A stretch of DNA of 64,000 nucleotides, taken from assembly GCF_000421485.1 (NCBI RefSeq), contig NZ_ATXC01000001.1, positions 248,001 through 312,000 of the forward strand, written 5' to 3'. This document shows, piece by piece, positions 10,367-19,047 of this stretch (position 1 is the stretch's first letter; every line of letters begins with the position of its first letter). Source of the stretch: Desulfurobacterium sp. TC5-1 (lineage in GTDB: Bacteria; Aquificota; Aquificia; Desulfurobacteriales; Desulfurobacteriaceae). The notes beneath the pieces are model-generated. The model was not told the origin of the DNA, made no database searches, and saw only the letters and a list, made by a program, of their open reading frames with translations. The position numbers and the translations under genes were made by a program.

Positions 10367-10552
10367 ATGGACTATAAAGATAGGATTGCGAGAGATCCCA
10401 CGATACTAAATGGCAAACCAGTTATAAAGGGAACAAGAATTCCTGTAGAAATTATCCTTAGAAAATTGGGAGATGGTTTATCTTTTGAGGATCTTTTAAA
10501 AGCCTATCCAACTCTGAAAAAAGAGGATATTTTAGCCGCGGTAGGTTTGTAG
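10367..10552 (+). CDS. DUF433 family small protein (antitoxin-like)
   Basis: A 61-residue protein with the DUF433 hallmark RDPTILNGKPVIKGTRIPVEIIL, then a helical end YPTLKKEDILAAV that looks like a winged or helix-turn-helix DNA-binding unit. DUF433 proteins are usually paired with a PIN-like DUF5615 protein and treated as putative antitoxins. No such partner follows here: the next gene is 66 bases on and belongs to a different pair, so this copy looks orphaned. An AGGAG site precedes the ATG. The function is inferred only from the family. Confidence 0.75.
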   Translation: MDYKDRIARDPTILNGKPVIKGTRIPVEIILRKLGDGLSFEDLLKAYPTLKKEDILAAVGL

Positions 10553-10618
10553 TTCTCACTCCTAAGAAAGTTAGAATTAGAAATGTATAGAGCAAATTGA
10601 TTTTGTGGAGGAAAACGG

Positions 10619-10843
10619 ATGTTAAAATTCAAAATAAAACCAAAAGGAGAAAAAATCACCATTTATTTACCTGAGGAATTGTTTGACCAGGAATTAGAAG
10701 TGACAATTTCTCCAGTAAAGAAAAAGAAGAATCAATTAGAGAGAATTAGAAATATGTTGAAGAACAGACCTGAAAATATATTTCACGCTATAAATGATCC
10801 AGTAGCCTGGCAAAGGAGTTTACGTGAAGAATGGGAAATGTAA
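10619..10843 (+). CDS. Putative antitoxin partner of the following PIN protein
   Basis: A 74-residue charged protein with no family I can name. It starts with a beta-strand-rich stretch (FKIKPKGEKITIYLPEELFDQELEVTIS). A basic helical region around 35-52 follows, then a tail ending DPVAWQRSLREEWEM. That tail ending, the length and the 13-base overlap with a PIN-domain gene fit a VapB-type antitoxin whose C-terminus neutralises the toxin. The N-terminus is not clearly an AbrB or ribbon-helix-helix domain. Start chosen after a GGAGG site (tgtggaggaaaacgg). Role is inferred from position. Confidence 0.6.
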   Translation: MLKFKIKPKGEKITIYLPEELFDQELEVTISPVKKKKNQLERIRNMLKNRPENIFHAINDPVAWQRSLREEWEM

Positions 10844-11211
10844 TTCTGGATTCCAACGTCATAATTTATTTGTCAAAGGGAATTATAGATATTGCTGATT
10901 TGATAAGAAGTGAAGAAGTTAAAATATGGATATCAATAATTAGTTATATGGAAGTATTGAGTTTTGATTTCCTTTCATTCGAAGAAGAGAAATTTGTAAG
11001 AGATTTACTGCAAGAATTCTTTATTATAGAAATTAATAGGGAAATAGCTGAAAGGACTATTCAAATACGCAGGAAGTATAAAATAAAACTTCCGGATGCA
11101 ATAATTTGTGCTTCAGCATCTGTTACTGATGCTATCCTGATAACTGCAGATACACAGCTTGGTAAGGTAAGAGAAGCCAATGTAAAGGTTATCAGTCCAC
11201 CGACTAAATAA
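10831..11211 (+). CDS. vapC: PIN-domain ribonuclease toxin, VapC-like
   Basis: A 126-residue PIN-domain protein predicted to cleave RNA using Mg2+. The acidic residues expected for the active site are all present: D7 in ILDSNV, E41 in SYMEVL, D89 in LPDAIICASA and D107 in ITADTQL. Length and order of motifs match VapC toxins. It overlaps the small upstream gene by 13 bases, typical of a vapBC operon. It sits immediately before the first array of repeat elements, in a zone rich in small toxin-antitoxin-like genes. Confidence 0.85.
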   Translation: MGNVILDSNVIIYLSKGIIDIADLIRSEEVKIWISIISYMEVLSFDFLSFEEEKFVRDLLQEFFIIEINREIAERTIQIRRKYKIKLPDAIICASASVTDAILITADTQLGKVREANVKVISPPTK

Positions 11212-11288
11212 GTAAGTGTTCAAATTTCGGTAACTATTTCCTATTGCAAGGGAGAAATCTGATGAAAAACATTATCTCAACTATCAAT

Positions 11289-11673
11289 GACTCGCTTTGC
11301 TCAGAATGACTTTTTTGCTGTCATTCTGAGGCTACGTAGTAGCCGAAGAATCCGTTCCTTTTCGTCACTCTGAGGTACTTTGTACCGAAGAGTCTTAGAT
11401 TCTTCGCTTGCGCTCAGAATGACGGGAAAGAAACGCTCAGGATGACGGAATGGGAAAGTGCTCAGAATGACTTTTTATTGTCATTCTGAGGCTACGTAGT
11501 AGCCGAAGAATCTGGACGCCTGAATGAGATCCTTCACTGACGCTCAGGATGACACTCTCTTTTCGTCACTCTGAGGCGCCCCGCACCGAAGAGTCTCAGA
11601 TCCTTCGGGCTGCGCCCTCAGGATGACACTCACTTCCGTCATTCTGAGGCCACAAAGTGGCCGAAGAATCTGA
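11289..11673. repeat. Array 1 of inverted hairpin repeat elements
   Basis: The non-coding stretch between the VapC-like gene and the HicB-like gene is made almost wholly of units in alternating orientation. Forward units read ATTCT-GA-stem-loop-stem-GA-AGAAT, for example 11323-11351 with inner stem GGCTAC/GTAGCC. A variant at 11367-11393 changes both sides of the outer stem to ACTCT/AGAGT. A reverse unit at 11600-11624 has ATCCT/AGGAT with inner GGGC/GCCC. Spacers are 5-40 bases of unrelated sequence. No protein-coding potential is credible here. Confidence 0.9.
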
Positions 11674-11706
11674 ACGTATAAAGGAATGGACTTAAAATAT
11701 AAAGGG

Positions 11707-11712
11707 TATAAT
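11707..11712 (+). promoter_or_regulatory. Possible -10 box for the HicBA-like pair
   Basis: A perfect TATAAT lies 37 bases before the GTG start of the HicB-like gene, just after array 1. No good -35 at standard spacing is seen, so the call is tentative. Confidence 0.35.
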
Positions 11713-11749
11713 TTAAAGAAAAAACGGAATGAATTACAGGAGATAAAAA

Positions 11750-11992
11750 GTGGAAAGTAGAATGATTAATGTAAAAGCTGTTTGGGATAAAGACGCACAA
11801 GTATGGGTAGCTATTGGTGAAAATGTTCCCGGATTGGTTACAGAGGCAGATACATTAGAACAACTCATTGAAAAATTGAAAGTTATGATTCCGGAATTGC
11901 TGGAAGCAAATAGATTACTTCCTAACAACAAAGAGGAAATTCATTTTCGCCTGCTAAGCGAATGTACTGAAGTGGTGAAAGTCGGGGCATAG
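11750..11992 (+). CDS. HicB-like/DUF1902 antitoxin
   Basis: An 80-residue protein with the compact HicB-type fold pattern: VKAVWDKDAQVWVAIGENVPGLVTEADTLEQL, then a helical EKLKVMIPELLEAN. This is the partial RNase-H-like core shared by HicB and DUF1902 antitoxins. The GTG at 11750 is preferred because AGGAGA at 11738-11743 is 6 bases upstream; an ATG at 11762 is an alternative. It precedes a HicA-like gene by 3 bases. Antitoxin-first order is common in this group. The pair is enclosed by repeat arrays on both sides. Confidence 0.8.
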   Translation: MESRMINVKAVWDKDAQVWVAIGENVPGLVTEADTLEQLIEKLKVMIPELLEANRLLPNNKEEIHFRLLSECTEVVKVGA

Positions 11993-11995
11993 CAA

Positions 11996-12190
11996 GTGGC
12001 AAATTTTACGCCGAAACTTAAAAAACTTCTTCGGGAAGCAGGTTGTTACTTTGTAAGGCAGGGAAAAGGTGACCATGAAATATGGTACAGCCCGATAACA
12101 AAGCGACATTTCGTTGTTGATTCAAAAATAAAATCACGTCATACAGCTAATGCTGTTCTAAAGCAAGCAGGATTACCTAAGCAATTTTAG
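11996..12190 (+). CDS. HicA-like (YcfA) mRNA interferase toxin
   Basis: A 64-residue double-stranded-RNA-binding-fold toxin of the HicA/YcfA family, expected to cut mRNA. It has KKLLREAGCYFVRQGKGDHEIWYSP with the family's catalytic-type histidine at H27, then a helix with HTANAVLKQAGL. The GTG start lies 3 bases after the antitoxin stop, so translation is probably coupled. The stop is followed after 4 bases by a half repeat element (12195 onward). Confidence 0.85.
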   Translation: MANFTPKLKKLLREAGCYFVRQGKGDHEIWYSPITKRHFVVDSKIKSRHTANAVLKQAGLPKQF

Positions 12191-12194
12191 TAAG

Positions 12195-12745
12195 GTGGCC
12201 GAAGAATCTGGACGACTGGAAGGAGATTCTTCGCTTCGCTCAGAATGACGGGAAGGGGCGCTCAGAATGACTTTTTATTTTGTGTCATCCTGAGGACAGA
12301 GTCCGAAGGATCTATGAGGTTCTTCGCTGTGTTCAGGTGGGAGATTCTTCGCTTCGCTCAGAATGACAGAAAAGAAACGCTCAGGATGACGGAAGGGTGC
12401 ACGGAATAATTCTGTTTTTCTTGTCATCCTGAGGACAGAGTCCGAAGGATCTGTTGAGGCTTTTTGCTGGGTTCAGGTGAGAGATTCTTCGCTTCGCTCA
12501 GAATGACGTTTTCTTTTTGTCACTCTGAGGTGCAGTGTACCGAAGAGTCTATGGTAATGGGATGAGATTCTTCGCTTCGCTCAGAATGACAAAGAAACGC
12601 TCAGAATGACAAAGAAACGCTCAGAATGACAAAGAAACGCTCAGAATGACAAAGAAACGCTCAAGATGACAGAAAAGGGCGCTCAGAATGACGGAAGGGG
12701 AAAGTACTCAGAGTGACGGGAAGAAGGTTCAGAATGACAGGGAAA
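12195..12745. repeat. Array 2 of inverted hairpin repeat elements
   Basis: The 639-base gap between the HicA-like gene and the sugar transferase holds a dense array. It opens with a half unit whose first 20 bases match 11657-11676 of array 1 at 19 of 20 positions. Several full forward units (GGAC-AGA-GTCC inner hairpin) and many reverse units (inner GC-TTC-GC) follow. Near the end only half units remain, ending around 12745. No gene is seen in it. Confidence 0.9.
12591..12670 (+). repeat. 20-base tandem repeat, four copies
   Basis: Within array 2 the unit aaagaaacgc-tcagaatgac is repeated four times head to tail, the last copy with a small rearrangement (tcaagatgac). Each copy is the right half of the reverse hairpin element plus a purine-rich spacer, suggesting local expansion by slippage or unequal crossover. 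Confidence 0.9.
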
Positions 12746-12781
12746 AATAGAATGGATTGGTAGTAATAGGTTACGTGTTGG

Positions 12782-12787
12782 TATAAT
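12782..12787 (+). promoter_or_regulatory. Possible -10 box for the sugar transferase gene
   Basis: A TATAAT hexamer lies 42 bases before the ATG of the WcaJ-like gene, immediately after array 2. A TTGGTA at 12757-12762 is a weak -35 with a long 19-base spacer. Confidence 0.35.
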
Positions 12788-12829
12788 AGATTTAAGTTTA
12801 TATACTTTTACTTTGTTTGAGAGGATTTA

Positions 12830-13468
12830 ATGGGGGTTGTCTCAAAAATCCCATGGTGGAAAAGACCTTTTGACGTTGTGTTTTCTTTGTTTGCGATAAT
12901 ATTAACATTACCGATAATGCTTATAATAGCAATCATAATAAAATTTACGGATAGAGGAAGCATTCTTTTTGTTCAGGAAAGGCCTGGATTAAACGGTAAG
13001 CAGTTTAAGCTCTACAAATTTAGAACAATGTATCCAAATAACGATAAAATCCTGCAGGAATTTCTTGCCAAAAATCCAGAAGCTGCTAAAGAATGGCGAC
13101 TTTACAGGAAACTGAGAAAATACGATCCAAGAGTTACATCGATAGGAAGATTTTTGAGGAAAACGAGTCTTGATGAACTGCCGCAGTTTTTTAACATATT
13201 AAAAGGCGATATGAGTGTTGTGGGTCCTCGGCCATATTTGTTAAGTGAATTTGAAGATTACAACATTCCTGAAAATATAAGAAAAAAATTACTTTCAGTT
13301 AGGCCTGGAATAACGGGATTGTGGCAGGTGGAAGGTAGGAATGAAATGACCTTTCAGGATAGGGTGAATTTGGATTTGGAATACATTGACAATATTTCGT
13401 TTACAAATGATATCATAATAATTTTAAAAACAATAATAGTAATGTTTTCAGGGAGAGGGGCGTATTAA
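12830..13468 (+). CDS. Undecaprenyl-phosphate sugar-1-phosphate transferase (WcaJ/bacterial sugar transferase family)
   Basis: A 212-residue monotopic phosphoglycosyl transferase that probably starts repeat-unit synthesis by loading a sugar-1-phosphate on undecaprenyl phosphate. A single hydrophobic re-entrant helix spans residues ~14-38. The catalytic block ERPGLNGKQFKLYKFRTM follows, then the acidic pair in SLDELPQFFNILKGDMS, VVGPRP, and RPGITGLWQVEGRN. It lacks the long N-terminal membrane domain of full WcaJ, so it is a minimal form. It is separated from the 1-10 kb glycan cluster by ~2.5 kb of accessory DNA but plausibly serves it. Confidence 0.9.
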   Translation: MGVVSKIPWWKRPFDVVFSLFAIILTLPIMLIIAIIIKFTDRGSILFVQERPGLNGKQFKLYKFRTMYPNNDKILQEFLAKNPEAAKEWRLYRKLRKYDPRVTSIGRFLRKTSLDELPQFFNILKGDMSVVGPRPYLLSEFEDYNIPENIRKKLLSVRPGITGLWQVEGRNEMTFQDRVNLDLEYIDNISFTNDIIIILKTIIVMFSGRGAY

Positions 13469-13513
13469 ATTATCAGAATTTTTAGTTTTTTTATAAAATA
13501 AAAAATTTTCTGT

Positions 13514-13530
13514 CGGAGATATTATCTCCG
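13514..13530 (+). terminator. Hairpin downstream of the sugar transferase
   Basis: A perfect 7-base-pair stem CGGAGAT/ATCTCCG with a 3-base loop lies 46 bases after the sugar transferase stop. It is followed by only two T residues, so it is a weak terminator or simply a transcript-end structure. Confidence 0.4.
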
Positions 13531-13627
13531 TTCCCATCACGCCATAATGGCTATCACGACAAATCCCGCCATCAGTTATTAAAATTACTTATATTTCTAT
13601 TTTTGTTCACTTCACGCTTTTTGCAGG

Positions 13628-13656
13628 TTGTTTTAACGGAGCTTCTATTCTACAAT
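13628..13656 (+). promoter_or_regulatory. Putative sigma70-type promoter for the aminotransferase operon
   Basis: TTGTTT (13628-13633) and TACAAT (13651-13656) are separated by 17 bases and end 31 bases before the chosen ATG. This is a reasonable but not strong match. Confidence 0.4.
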
Positions 13657-13687
13657 TTTGCTAATCTTTTAGTAATTGGGTGGTGGC

Positions 13688-14845
13688 ATGAATAAAGTAT
13701 TAAAGGCTATGAAACCTTATCCTATGGATGAGCTTATAAAAGCTAAAGAGGAATTAAGGAAGCAGGGAAAAAAAATATACGATTTTGGAACTGGCGATCC
13801 GAAGGAGCCGACGGCACCTTTCATAAGGGAAGCGGTTAGAAATGCTGTACCTGAAGTGTCCCAATATCCTACCGTTAAAGGAAGAAAGGATTTACGGGAA
13901 GCTGTAAGTGTATGGTTTGAAAACCGCTTTGGTGTAAAGCTTGATCCTGAGACAGAAATAATTCCGTCTGCCGGTTCAAAAGAGGCGATATTCCACTTTC
14001 CGCTTGTTTTTATAGAGGAAGAGTCTGAAAAGAAAAGGGTTATATACGGAACGCCTGCGTATCCTGTTTATGAGAGGGGAACTCTCTTTGCCGGCGGCAC
14101 TCCAACACCGCTGACGCTTAAGTATGAAGACGGTTTTCTGTTAAGGCTTGATAGAGTTGAACCTTCTATTTTAGAAGAGACAAAGATAGTCTGGATAAAT
14201 TATCCCCATAATCCGACAGGTGCTGTGGCACCGATGAGTTATCTTAAAGATATTTATGAAATATGCAGAGAATACGACATTATTCTATGTTCAGACGAAT
14301 GTTACACAGAGATATATTTTGAAGATAAGCCGCCGTCAGCCCTTCAGGTTGGAAAAGAAAATGTTGTGGTTTTCCATTCTTTATCAAAGAGAAGCGGAAT
14401 GACTGGTTATAGGAGTGGTTTTGTAGCCGGCGATGATAAAATCATAAAAGAATACCTCCGTTTTCGCTCGTCTTTCGGCGTTGGTTCACCGGAATTTATT
14501 CAAATTGGTGCAAGGGAAGCGTGGAAAGATGAAAAGCACGTTGAAGAGAGAAGGGAAATTTTCAGGAAAAAGAAGGAAATCTTTGAAGAGTTTTTTAAAA
14601 ATGAAGGGCTTGAATTTTTAGACGTAAAAGCAACTTTTTACTTCTGGGTAAAGGTTCCTGAGGGTGTCTCATCAAAAGATTACGCGCTTCATCTGTTAAA
14701 ATACGGTATAGTGATTTCACCGGGTGAATTTTTCGGAAACGGCGGTGAAGGATTTTTCAGAATTGCCCTTGTTCCGTCGGTGGAAGAGTGCCGGGAAGCC
14801 GTAAAGGTGTGGAAGGAAGCTCATAGAACGATTAAGAGGAGCTGA
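13688..14845 (+). CDS. Class I/II PLP aminotransferase, probably succinyldiaminopimelate aminotransferase (DapC-like)
   Basis: A 385-residue fold-type I aminotransferase. PLP-binding elements visible: YDFGTGDPKEP at the N-terminus, the GS-type loop SAGSKEAIF, NYPHNPTGAV, SDECYTEIYF, and the Schiff-base lysine in HSLSKRSGMTGYRSG at about K231. The C-terminal arginine region GEGFFRIALV completes the set. The FGTGDP start and SLSKRSG motif are typical of DapC-like enzymes of lysine/peptidoglycan synthesis, but substrate assignment from sequence alone is uncertain. The ATG at 13688 follows a GGGTGGTGG tract; a TTG four codons upstream overlaps that tract and is less likely. Confidence 0.8.
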   Translation: MNKVLKAMKPYPMDELIKAKEELRKQGKKIYDFGTGDPKEPTAPFIREAVRNAVPEVSQYPTVKGRKDLREAVSVWFENRFGVKLDPETEIIPSAGSKEAIFHFPLVFIEEESEKKRVIYGTPAYPVYERGTLFAGGTPTPLTLKYEDGFLLRLDRVEPSILEETKIVWINYPHNPTGAVAPMSYLKDIYEICREYDIILCSDECYTEIYFEDKPPSALQVGKENVVVFHSLSKRSGMTGYRSGFVAGDDKIIKEYLRFRSSFGVGSPEFIQIGAREAWKDEKHVEERREIFRKKKEIFEEFFKNEGLEFLDVKATFYFWVKVPEGVSSKDYALHLLKYGIVISPGEFFGNGGEGFFRIALVPSVEECREAVKVWKEAHRTIKRS

Positions 14846-14847
14846 GA

Positions 14848-15242
14848 TTGAACCTTAGAGCCACCAGGAGAAAACCCATTGCTCAAATTATACTTTCACC
14901 TATTCTTGACCTTACGCTTATGCTTGTTATATTTCTTGCCGTCAGTACCGAGTTTATGTCCGGTGGTGAAGTTAAGATTCACGTTCCAAAAGGCGGGGCT
15001 CCAATAAGCTATAACAAATATGAGAAAGTAAATAAAATACTGATAGATAAATGGGGAAAAATATTTTACAACGGTAAAACGTACACAAATATAAGCCAGG
15101 TTATACCCCTTTTAAAGAAAAATGAGCGGGTTTACATAAGAGCGGATAGAGAGACTCCCTACATGTATGTGTTTCAGGTGATAGACGGCCTAAGGAAAGC
15201 AAATTTCACAACAATTTCCCTTGTTGGTGAGAGGACGGAACG

Positions 15243-15246
<4 letters not shown>
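14848..15246 (+). CDS. exbD: ExbD/TolR family biopolymer transport protein
   Basis: A 132-residue inner-membrane protein of the ExbD/TolR type, part of a proton-driven motor energising outer-membrane processes. The single N-terminal membrane helix (about residues 13-35, IILSPILDLTLMLVIFLAV) carries the functionally important aspartate in SPILDLTLML. The periplasmic domain ends VIDGLRKANFTTISLVGE. The TTG start follows a GAGGAG site by 5 bases. No exbB/tolQ partner is in the window, which is unusual. It overlaps tsaE by four bases. Confidence 0.85.
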
Positions 15247-16989
<1,743 letters not shown>

Positions 16990-16995
16990 AATATT

Positions 16996-17014
16996 GCCGG
17001 GCTTTCTGCCCGGC
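16996..17014 (+). terminator. Terminator-like hairpin after enolase
   Basis: A perfect GCCGGGC/GCCCGGC stem with loop TTTCT begins 7 bases after the eno stop. There is no T-run afterwards (GTTCTAAA), so it may stabilise the mRNA end or terminate weakly. Confidence 0.5.
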
Positions 17015-17065
17015 GTTCTAAAAAGTTACCTCCTCAGATATTTTTCCCATCATCCCGGTCAATAT

Positions 17066-17637
17066 TGTCATCCTGAGGACAGAGTCCGAAGGATCTAAGA
17101 GATTCTTCGCTGGGTTCGGGTGGGAGATTCTTCGCTTCGCTCAGAATGACGTTTCCTTTTTGTCACTCTGAGGTGCTGTGCGCCGAAGAGTCTATGGTAA
17201 TAGGATGAGATTCTTCGCTTCGCTCAGAATGACAGGGAAGGGGCGCTCAGAATAATTCTGTTTTTCTTGTCATCCTGAGGACAGAGTCCGAAGGATCTAT
17301 GAAGCTCTTCGCTGGGTTCGGGTGGGAGATTCTTCGCTTCGCTCAGAATGACGGGAAAGGGCGCTCAGAATGGTTTTTTATTGTCATTCTGAGGCTACGT
17401 AGTAGCCGAAGAATCTGTGTGAATGAAATGAAGTCTCGGGGTCTTACTATCAGGGTGAGATTCTTCGCTTCGCTCAGAATGACAGAAAAGAAACGCTCAG
17501 AATGACAGGGAAAGGCGCTCAGAATGACGGGAAGGGGCGCTCAGGATGACGTTTCCTTTGTCATTCTGAGGCCACAAAGTGGCCGAAGAATCTGGATGCT
17601 TGAAAAAGCTCCTTCAGGCTGCGCCCGCAGGATGACA
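17066..17637. repeat. Array 3 of inverted hairpin repeat elements
   Basis: Nearly all of the 695-base gap between eno and the nucleotidyltransferase is repeat array. A forward unit at 17070-17094 has ATCCT/AGGAT outer and GGAC/GTCC inner stems. It is followed by a reverse unit at 17127-17147 with ATTCT/AGAAT and inner GC-TTC-GC, then more units in mixed orientation. The last unit carries GGCCAC/GTGGCC. The outer ends GTCATYCTGAG and CTCAGRATGAC are reverse complements, so forward/reverse pairs form larger inverted repeats. Confidence 0.9.
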
Positions 17638-17684
17638 GAAAGGCTTGCTTTTTTTTATATTTTATTAATGAAAACCTTATTCAG

Positions 17685-17981
17685 GTGATAAGTGTGAGAG
17701 ACGAGATTTTGGTGAAGCTCAGGGGTTTAAAAAAGAAACTCCAGGAAGTTTACGGGATAGAAGAGATAGCGATTTTTGGTTCGGTAGCAAGGGGTGAATG
17801 TACTGAAAATAGTGATGTTGATATAGTTATTCTAAAAATGAAGAAAAAAAACGGTTTTAAAATTGCCGGTGCCCGAAATTTCCTGAAAAATGAACTGAAC
17901 AGAAACGTTGATCTGGGGCTTTACGATTCACTTAATCCTTTTGTAAAAGAAAATGTTAAGAAGGAAATGATCGGTGTCTAA
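17685..17981 (+). CDS. MNT-type minimal nucleotidyltransferase (antitoxin-like)
   Basis: A 98-residue nucleotidyltransferase of the minimal (MNT/MntA) group. The signature IAIFGSVARGE with SDVDIVIL gives the G-S and two metal-binding aspartates, and a third acidic position is in NRNVDLGLYD. Family members often AMPylate and silence a HEPN-domain toxin encoded beside them. No HEPN gene follows: the downstream DNA encodes other proteins on the opposite strand. The start is GTG at 17685. Flanked by array 3 and a second small putative toxin-antitoxin pair. Confidence 0.8.
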   Translation: MISVRDEILVKLRGLKKKLQEVYGIEEIAIFGSVARGECTENSDVDIVILKMKKKNGFKIAGARNFLKNELNRNVDLGLYDSLNPFVKENVKKEMIGV

Positions 17982-18014
17982 AAGAAAGTTCCCGGAAATT
18001 TTCCTATTTGACGT

Positions 18015-18239
18015 TCACTGGCCGACTGCTTTCTTTACCGACAATGCCGGGAAGGTAAATTCTATCTTTTCACCCATAACTTCGGAAGCATCTATTATTT
18101 CAATTCCTAAGAGATTTCCCTTTTCATCCACATCCACGTAAACTCCGGGTGTAACGGTAAAAGTTTTGAATACTTTTGTTCCCGGTTCCCCAAAGCGTAT
18201 ATACAGTAAGTCCCTTTTTTCGTCATATTCAAATCTCAT
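18015..18239 (-). CDS. DUF2283 family protein
   Basis: A 74-residue protein with the DUF2283 pattern: RFEYDEKRDLLYIRFGEP, then VTPGVYVDVDEKGNLLGIEIIDASEVMG. This is a small all-beta repeat-like fold of unknown biochemical role. The gene overlaps the upstream DUF4258-like gene by four bases (ATGA). DUF4258 and DUF2283 genes are commonly neighbours and have been proposed as a toxin-antitoxin-like pair; the antitoxin role here is inference only. Confidence 0.75.
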   Translation of the reverse strand: MRFEYDEKRDLLYIRFGEPGTKVFKTFTVTPGVYVDVDEKGNLLGIEIIDASEVMGEKIEFTFPALSVKKAVGQ

Positions 18240-18520
18240 ATTTTTTCCTCCGTTCCAGAAAACTTTCCATACCGTGCTATAACGGTTAGAACAATGATTT
18301 CTCCATCTATCACTTTATAATAAACGGTTACTTCTTTCTCCGGAAAAAATTTATTGCACCATCTTTTATTATAGGAAAAAACAAAGGTCTTACCATAAGT
18401 TCCAGGTTTTGCATTGGACGCATTGAATCCTTTTTCAAGAGTTATTTTTATTTCTTCAAGGGTTACTCCTCTTTCTTCCATTCTCATTTTTAAATGTGGA
18501 TGTATGTTTATTCTTCGCAC
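18236..18520 (-). CDS. DUF4258-like protein (putative toxin of a DUF4258/DUF2283 pair)
   Basis: A 94-residue basic protein starting INIHPHLKMRMEERGVTLEEIKITLEKG, the H-x-x-x-R-x-x-x-R helix and turn typical of DUF4258/BrnT-like folds. It ends VTVYYKVIDGEIIVLTVIARYGKF, the matching beta pair. Similar folds occur in RelE/BrnT-like RNA-targeting toxins, so a toxin role is possible but not shown. First gene of a two-gene minus-strand unit lying between repeat arrays 3 and 4. Confidence 0.65.
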   Translation of the reverse strand: MRRINIHPHLKMRMEERGVTLEEIKITLEKGFNASNAKPGTYGKTFVFSYNKRWCNKFFPEKEVTVYYKVIDGEIIVLTVIARYGKFSGTEEKI

Positions 18521-18624
18521 ATTAATTTCCTCAAGTGTCGAATAAATATTATCGTTTAGGAGCTGGATAAGAGAGCAGTTGCCGCTTGAAACTTATAAGA
18601 TACATTATAACAGATATCAGGAAG

Positions 18625-18920
18625 GTTCTTCGCTGTGCTTAGAATGGCACTCTCTTTTCGTCACTCTGAAGTGCTGTGCACCGAAGAGTCTCAGATCCTT
18701 CGCTAACGCTCAGGATGACGGGAAGGGGCGTTCAGAATAATTCTGTTTTTCTTGTCATCCTGAGGACAGAGTCCGAAGGATCTAAGAGATTCTTCGCTGG
18801 GTTCGGGTGGGAGATTCTTCGCTTCGCTCAGAATGACATTTCCTTTTTGTCACTCTGAGGTGCTGTGCGCCGAAGAGTCTATGGTAATAGGATGAGATTC
18901 TTCGCTTCGCTCAGAATGAC
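18625..18920. repeat. Array 4 of inverted hairpin repeat elements
   Basis: About 300 bases of alternating forward and reverse units lie upstream of the porin gene. Degenerate copies occur at its left edge (a GTTCTTCGC..TTAGAATGGC reverse unit), and near-identical copies of units from array 3 occur at 18750-18920, including long identical runs with 17070-17240. The array ends 128 bases before the porin promoter. The remaining DNA of this gap is AT-rich and holds only that promoter. Confidence 0.9.
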
Positions 18921-19047
18921 GGGAAAGGGGTGCTTGTAATACTAACAAAGTGGAAAAGTACTTAAATCCGATGAGTATGCCTGCCATAGTATTTGCCTTA
19001 TATAAAAAAAAGTGTTTTTAAAATTGCGATTCAAATCATTAACTTTA

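Follow-up and report, generated by a model that had tools for sequence, protein, structure and literature searches.

Hairpin arrays at a polysaccharide and toxin-antitoxin locus

The window analysed here is a stretch of 64,000 nucleotides (C1:248001-312000) from the 1.65-Mb genome of Desulfurobacterium sp. TC5-1 (G000); it contains a family of hairpin repeats that we compare with a small GIY-YIG protein encoded among them. By pattern match, 29 exact hairpins occur in the window in four intergenic arrays (Table 1); the genome contains 51, with 49 located within 26 kb (C1:240593-266920) and two elsewhere. The hairpins follow the formula GTC-A-YYCT-GA-(inner hairpin)-GA-AGRR-T-C, that is, an unpaired GTC tag precedes an outer stem (ATTCT, ATCCT, or ACTCT), GA facing GA, and an inner stem with a short loop; some copies carry a doubled module (GA/GA, one or two pairs, a second GA/GA, and then the loop). 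The long-stem copies lie on the + strand (one on the − strand), whereas those of the short GC-loop-GC form lie on the − strand, so the arrays consist of alternating inverted pairs.

The repeat cluster spans the genes of a polysaccharide locus together with several small genes of toxin-antitoxin-like type (PIN, HicA/DUF1902, nucleotidyltransferase/HEPN-like pairs, and DUF2283/DUF4258). Inside the cluster, ~4.7 kb before the first base of the window, is the gene for the GIY-YIG protein (96 aa; C1:243051-243341, + strand); repeats precede it by 73 bp and follow it at 141 bp. The protein is a member of PF01541 (GIY-YIG; E = 1e-18, Pfam), and the predicted fold of a modelled homologue resembles GIY-YIG structures; a search of the solved structures by sequence identified no close relative.

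Conservation of the fold

The original prediction, made from the sequence of the window, described four arrays of one design in which outer and inner stems covary around fixed GA/GA positions. The arrays and the hairpins that it named are located where it placed them (pattern match), and all of its inner stems are found in the window. Covariation was evaluated with a pattern in which the two variable outer positions were free on both sides, that is, pairing was not forced; even so, 103 of the 104 variable outer pairs in this genome are Watson-Crick (one T.G, no C.A), as are 41 of 42 when only the 21 distinct hairpins are considered (Fisher p = 5.5e-10). The outer pairs are Watson-Crick in 118/126 cases in the cluster of a relative, G012 (75/82 in distinct sequences), and in 622/634 cases in other phyla (389/400 in 200 distinct hairpins); the Fisher p values for distinct sequences range from 1e-4 to 1e-70 across the three sets. 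With no constraint on either GA position and pairing demanded just of the outer and inner stems, GA/GA was retained in 196 of 205 distinct hairpins (18/19, 30/32, 9/10, 8/9, and 131/135 by set), so the predicted fixity of these positions was borne out as well. A reversed control pattern had 0 matches in the own genome and 0 in 50 genomes with thousands of copies. The calculated folding energy of the shortest copies is unimpressive as a sole test (z ~0). The covariation, the fixed GA/GA, and the restricted loops (vide infra) across phyla support selection acting on the folded single strand.

Blocks of ~166 bp are duplicated in the window (positions 17068-17235 and 18755-18925 are identical at 165/166 positions; 12422-12600 and 18755-18925 at 152/166). 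Because these blocks recur almost unaltered, the window copies are not independent; independent support therefore comes from other genomes and sister families. The concern raised with the original prediction, that the stem variants might trace to one or two recent duplications, was partly justified: the outer-stem variants in the window are in part block duplications, although these variants are also found again in other phyla. A neutral, satellite-like expansion, in which a palindrome is duplicated by slippage and recombination and no protein recognises it, is consistent with the near-identical blocks and the tandem half-units in the arrays; however, it does not explain why GA/GA and the loop type are maintained across more than 20 phyla, and the linkage and residue match to one nuclease subfamily (described below) would be unexpected, so we consider it quite unlikely.

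Loops of the DNA type

The loops were counted in copies with a GC-loop-GC core. Of the 121 loops of three bases, 104 are GNA, and all 30 loops of four bases are GNNA; of the latter, 22 are not the RNA-type GNRA because the third place is a pyrimidine. Ultra-stable DNA mini-hairpins are described as having a 'GNA or GNNA loop and at least two G-C pairs', and d(GCGAAGC) melts at 78°C (PMC4686876). The shortest copies have precisely GC-GNA-GC or GC-GNNA-GC as their inner part; a mini-hairpin known as a laboratory oligonucleotide motif is here the core of a genomic repeat. The GA contexts are TGAG and CGAA, that is, Py-GA-Pu on both arms; in DNA, contexts of this kind generally promote the sheared form of tandem G-A pairs.

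Single-stranded DNA (ssDNA) is favoured over RNA because the loops obey the DNA mini-hairpin rule and not the RNA GNRA rule. The repeats are intergenic and fold well as RNA, as would be expected for a transcribed element (a terminator, an mRNA stabiliser, or a small RNA) selected as folded RNA; however, with alternating orientation, transcription of half of the copies would yield the TC/TC complement, and G.T pairs are nearly absent (1/104 here, 2/400 across phyla). A search of the arrays against Rfam returned nothing above the gathering score (two chance-level hits). We regard an RNA element as quite unlikely. The selection on a folded strand proposed in the original prediction is supported, and its choice between RNA and ssDNA is narrowed to DNA by the alternating orientation, the rarity of G.T pairs, the DNA-type loops, and the lack of an Rfam match.

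Distribution and relation to known repeats

A scan of ~85,000 species genomes identified at least 120 stretches; the matches listed provided 50 repeat-bearing genomes that contain 2 to 447 copies each, and among these matches the hairpin design is found in more than 20 phyla, candidate phyla included. In the order to which the window belongs, the repeat is confined to its genus (51, 101, 15, and 1 copies vs 0 in 20 other genomes).

On the best reading, the window repeats form, within the GTC(CGTC)-tagged superfamily of repetitive extragenic palindromes (REPs), a branch that contains GA/GA. The CGTC-tagged superfamily includes the Neisseria dRS3 and Rickettsia RPE-4/RPE-6 repeats, and its authors reported no dedicated transposase or partner enzyme (Di Nocera et al., 2013; PMC3733652). 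The window repeats share with it the CGTC/TGTC tag (GTC is present in every copy, mostly after T or C), a stem that opens with A-T pairs (AT..AT or AC..GT), inverted dimers, heterodimers of unlike stems, occurrence in several phyla, copies inside genes, and the lack of adjoining transposase genes. In contrast to the continuous stem of 8–9 bp with a loop of 4–5 bases, they have a 5-bp outer stem, a fixed GA/GA that breaks the stem, an inner stem, and a GNA/GNNA loop of 3–4 bases; also, the tail is C followed mostly by T instead of the three-base CCA, and clusters are common. Because the stem and loop differ, we describe them as a relative and not as a member of CGTC-1 to -4.

The window repeats also resemble the GTAG REPs and REPINs that are associated with RAYT (short hairpin, unpaired tag, inverted pairs, high copy number). 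If they were classical REPs/REPINs moved by a hairpin-recognising Y1 transposase (RAYT, IS200/IS605-like), the fixed unpaired tag and the inverted pairs would be explained; some Y1 gene is present in 38 of the 50 repeat-bearing genomes, and one in G031 (L215), unlike all other Y1 loci that we examined, has window-type pairs on both sides (~0.2 and 1.2 kb). However, the tag is GTC (GTCA) and not GTAG, this 99.8% complete genome has no Y1 gene, 12 of the 50 genomes also lack one, and a window-type repeat is located within 300 bp of just one of 40 Y1 genes. We therefore rejected Y1/RAYT as the partner, absent here and almost never adjoining the repeats in relatives, and judge this explanation very unlikely.

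A GIY-YIG nuclease gene adjoins the repeats

Two of the 24 genomes in the order encode the nuclease, and these are the two with more than 50 repeats (p = 0.004); both genes are flanked by repeats on both sides. Homologues (E ≤ 0.001) are encoded by 37 of the 50 repeat-bearing genomes. For linkage, we compared 52 close homologues (50 from the repeat-bearing genomes plus the two of the order) with 20 divergent GIY-YIG genes and 40 Y1 genes from the same and related genomes. A window-type hairpin is present within 300 bp of 21/52 close homologues vs 0/20 divergent GIY-YIG and 1/40 Y1 genes (p = 1e-7); for GTC-tagged hairpins of any kind, the counts within this distance are 42/52 homologues vs 8/60 controls (p = 2e-13), with six other three-letter tags found near 4–15 of the 52. 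The other flanking types include GTC-ATTGC, -ATTTC, -ATGCT, -ATCCC, and -ATCTC; fully paired GTC-ATTCCCGCG...CGGGAAT hairpins, that is, the CGTC-1 design, also flank nuclease homologues. As an independent sample, we used 150 Pseudomonadota genomes that were not chosen by repeat (except G058, the centre genome). Close homologues are found in 30 of the 150; a GTC-tagged hairpin is located within 300 bp at 35 of 49 loci and on both sides at 20, vs 4–13 and 0–2 of the 49 loci, respectively, for eight control tags.

The 2013 survey reported no partner for the CGTC-tagged REPs; the window repeats have a candidate in the GIY-YIG nuclease, which is also encoded beside CGTC-1-type copies. The original prediction could offer no functional account of such DNA; this no longer holds, as the arrays surround a nuclease gene that adjoins such hairpins in many phyla.

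Nuclease residues vary with hairpin type

We compared the residues that follow REKxxK in the nuclease with the type of the flanking hairpin. W in RxWK pairs with fully paired hairpins in 33/34 cases and a residue other than W with GA/GA in 43/43; thus, paired vs GA/GA agrees with one nuclease residue in 76/77 cases, repeat-blind genomes included. [AG]G is the accompanying motif of TTGC stems (7/7) and G that of stems with a final T (23/24). The stem-to-residue pattern was recorded before the Pseudomonadota loci were read, and the sharper wording of the W rule (paired vs GA) arose while reading them; in these loci, the W rule holds in 28/29 and 5/5 cases and TTGC occurs with [AG]G in 2/2. As predicted, both flanks of locus L104 (KKWNRKWK) carry paired hairpins. 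Seen as a pattern, the correspondence is strong; counted in independent events, it is weak. A separate observation is that G061 encodes approximately ten GIY-YIG homologues with flanking hairpins of differing types, fully paired and GA/GA (L242, L263, L271-L274), a natural specificity set.

Because the hairpins surround a nuclease gene whose sequence varies in step with the hairpin type, we read them as recognition sites: it is probable, judging from these sequence patterns, that the repeats are ssDNA hairpin recognition (probably nicking) sites of the small GIY-YIG nuclease whose gene the cluster contains. The hairpins are most likely enzyme recognition sites, in preference to RNA elements or meaningless repeats.

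Several observations weigh against this assignment. Genome-level co-occurrence of the nuclease with CGTC-1 copies is weak in Pseudomonadota (7/30 vs 10/120, p = 0.046), and one of these genomes (G162) has 490 CGTC-type copies and no homologue match. No close homologue was detected in 13 of the 50 repeat-bearing genomes, e.g., G057 and G072 (~300 copies each), and G067 (447 copies) has only a very distant one; in the order, G014 (15 copies, 85% complete) and G013 (one copy) lack the nuclease. Because many genomes have repeats, often in large sets, but no detected close homologue, we rejected a strict dependence of the repeats on the nuclease; it is not required for repeat persistence, although many of these genomes are incomplete assemblies. 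A tree calculated with the hairpin-matched residues masked is poorly resolved; the best tree has five residue/hairpin switches, of which one is strongly supported, and this one runs in the expected direction. Finally, many dispersed copies in G012 spread by another route: ~18 hairpin pairs (L017, L047-L063) are inside a transposon-like element of ~145 bp with inverted ends TGTTTGAAAA/TTTTCAAACA and target duplications of usually ~10 bp.

The G012 element suggests that the repeats might be passenger DNA of a transposon-like element (a miniature inverted-repeat transposable element) moved by a DDE transposase. However, this would explain only the dispersed pairs of that relative; terminal inverted repeats with target duplication are found only around those pairs and not in the genome of the window, where the element ends have no match. 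Because the ends are absent from this genome, such an element cannot explain the window, and we consider this explanation exceedingly unlikely. The element in G012 is a separate, later route of spread; a REPIN reading of the dispersed pairs was dropped, since the pairs are its cargo.

Proposed mechanism and significance

If the hairpins are sites of the nuclease, the GTC-bearing strand would fold when the locus turns single-stranded, either during lagging-strand replication or upon uptake in transformation; a ComEC-type competence gene, the sole competence gene found, is present in the genome, so ssDNA uptake may be possible. The unpaired GTC tag, the outer stem, the tandem GA pairs, and the GNA/GNNA mini-hairpin would then present a rigid shape to the cognate nuclease, which would bind and nick the folded GTC strand. 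Cutting at such a site could alter recombination and gene exchange at the nearby surface-polysaccharide and toxin-antitoxin genes and thereby influence transformation; it may also promote joint copying of the nuclease gene and its sites, in effect their self-propagation and mobility, with block duplication then enlarging the arrays.

A broader proposal, which we advance tentatively and consider rather doubtful, is that a nuclease-DNA shape code operates in most bacterial phyla, with a few residues after REKxxK choosing the GTC-tagged ssDNA hairpin in a self-propagating, non-transposase REP system. In this code, W would specify a continuous stem and its absence tandem GA, whereas [AG]G would specify a stem ending in GC and G one ending in T.

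Reportedly, single-strand-specific GIY-YIG nucleases (Ssn), described in a 2025 paper, act on Neisseria NTS repeats, affect natural transformation, and have many homologues. In both systems, a small GIY-YIG protein that stands alone is linked to a repeat family of its own (for Ssn, reportedly hundreds of repeats near important genes); unlike Ssn, the system proposed here has a host whose genes look Aquificota-like, GA/GA hairpin sites, and clustering in one polysaccharide/toxin-antitoxin locus, and a residue-to-hairpin correspondence is not known to have been described for Ssn. If Ssn is as reported, the kind of system is already known; the features that appear to be new are the branch with GA/GA and its range of phyla, the mini-hairpin grammar of the DNA, and the match between nuclease residues and hairpin type. 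Literature searches by the letters of the repeat found no relevant paper, those joining GIY-YIG with REP found none among the papers covered, and a 2006 survey of the GIY-YIG superfamily does not mention palindromes.

CGTC-tagged palindromes are widespread in bacteria, and the cause of their spread was left open by the 2013 survey (PMC3733652). In our data, the candidate partner of the classical and GA/GA branches alike is a GIY-YIG nuclease, and a few residues and base pairs emerge that could be exchanged in vitro. If confirmed, this assignment could yield single-strand hairpin cutters of chosen specificity, would account for a class of spurious database 'proteins', and would tie surface-polysaccharide variation to site-specific ssDNA cleavage.

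Features of the window and neighbouring genes

Table 1. Arrays and hairpins, in window coordinates.
Feature	Position	Strand
Array 1: 8 hairpins and half-units	11300-11670	.
ATTCT-GA-GGCTAC gta GTAGCC-GA-AGAAT	11320-11352	+
ACTCT-GA-GGTAC ttt GTACC-GA-AGAGT	11364-11394	+
ATTCT-GA-GC gcaa GC-GA-AGAAT	11398-11423	-
ATTCT-GA-GGCTAC gta GTAGCC	11480-11512	+
ATCCT-GA-GC gtca GT-GA-AGGAT	11528-11553	-
ACTCT/AGAGT	11565-11595	+
ATCCT-GA-GGGC gca GCCC-GA-AGGAT	11599-11627	-
ATTCT-GA-GGCCAC aaa GTGGCC	11638-11670	+
Array 2: 7 hairpins, then tandem half-units (12578-12692, 20-bp period)	12201-12720	.
ATTCT-GA-GC gaa GC-GA-AGAAT	12225-12249	-
ATCCT-GA-GGAC aga GTCC-GA-AGGAT	12284-12312	+
GC gaa GC type	12343-12367	-
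ATCCT, GGAC aga GTCC	12423-12451	+
GC gaa GC type	12483-12507	-
ACTCT type	12519-12549	+
GC gaa GC type	12566-12590	-
Array 3: 9 hairpins and half-units	17067-17640	.
ATCCT, GGAC aga GTCC	17067-17095	+
GC gaa GC type	17126-17150	-
ACTCT type	17162-17192	+
GC gaa GC type	17209-17233	-
ATCCT, GGAC aga GTCC	17269-17297	+
GC gaa GC type	17328-17352	-
ATTCT, GGCTAC gta GTAGCC	17383-17415	+
GC gaa GC type	17459-17483	-
ATTCT, GGCCAC aaa GTGGCC	17560-17592	+
Array 4: 5 hairpins and half-units	18620-18923	.
ATCCT, GC gtta GC type	18694-18719	-
ATCCT, GGAC aga GTCC	18754-18782	+
GC gaa GC type	18813-18837	-
ACTCT type	18849-18879	+
GC gaa GC type	18896-18920	-

One hairpin arm is also repeated alone, as half-units (CGCTCAGAATGAC plus a spacer) with a period of ~20–22 bp at window positions 12578-12692 and 17471-17550. 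Open reading frames made of repeat DNA are located at 17299-17505 and 18676-18858 (..RFFASLRMT.., ..LRFAQND..) and would be annotated as spurious small proteins.

Most arrays adjoin toxin-antitoxin-like pairs (window 10367-12190 and 17685-18520; L009:10931-12318; L045/L046). One nucleotidyltransferase/HEPN-like pair is 87–88% identical between this genome and G012; its position is rearranged, and it lies within the polysaccharide loci of both. A flippase-like (Wzx) open reading frame holds two in-frame hairpins (C1:246407-246476; L009:16407-16476), and the added stretch reads ..RHSERSEESPHPLRHSEVSCAEES..; these resemble the in-gene palindromes of Rickettsia.

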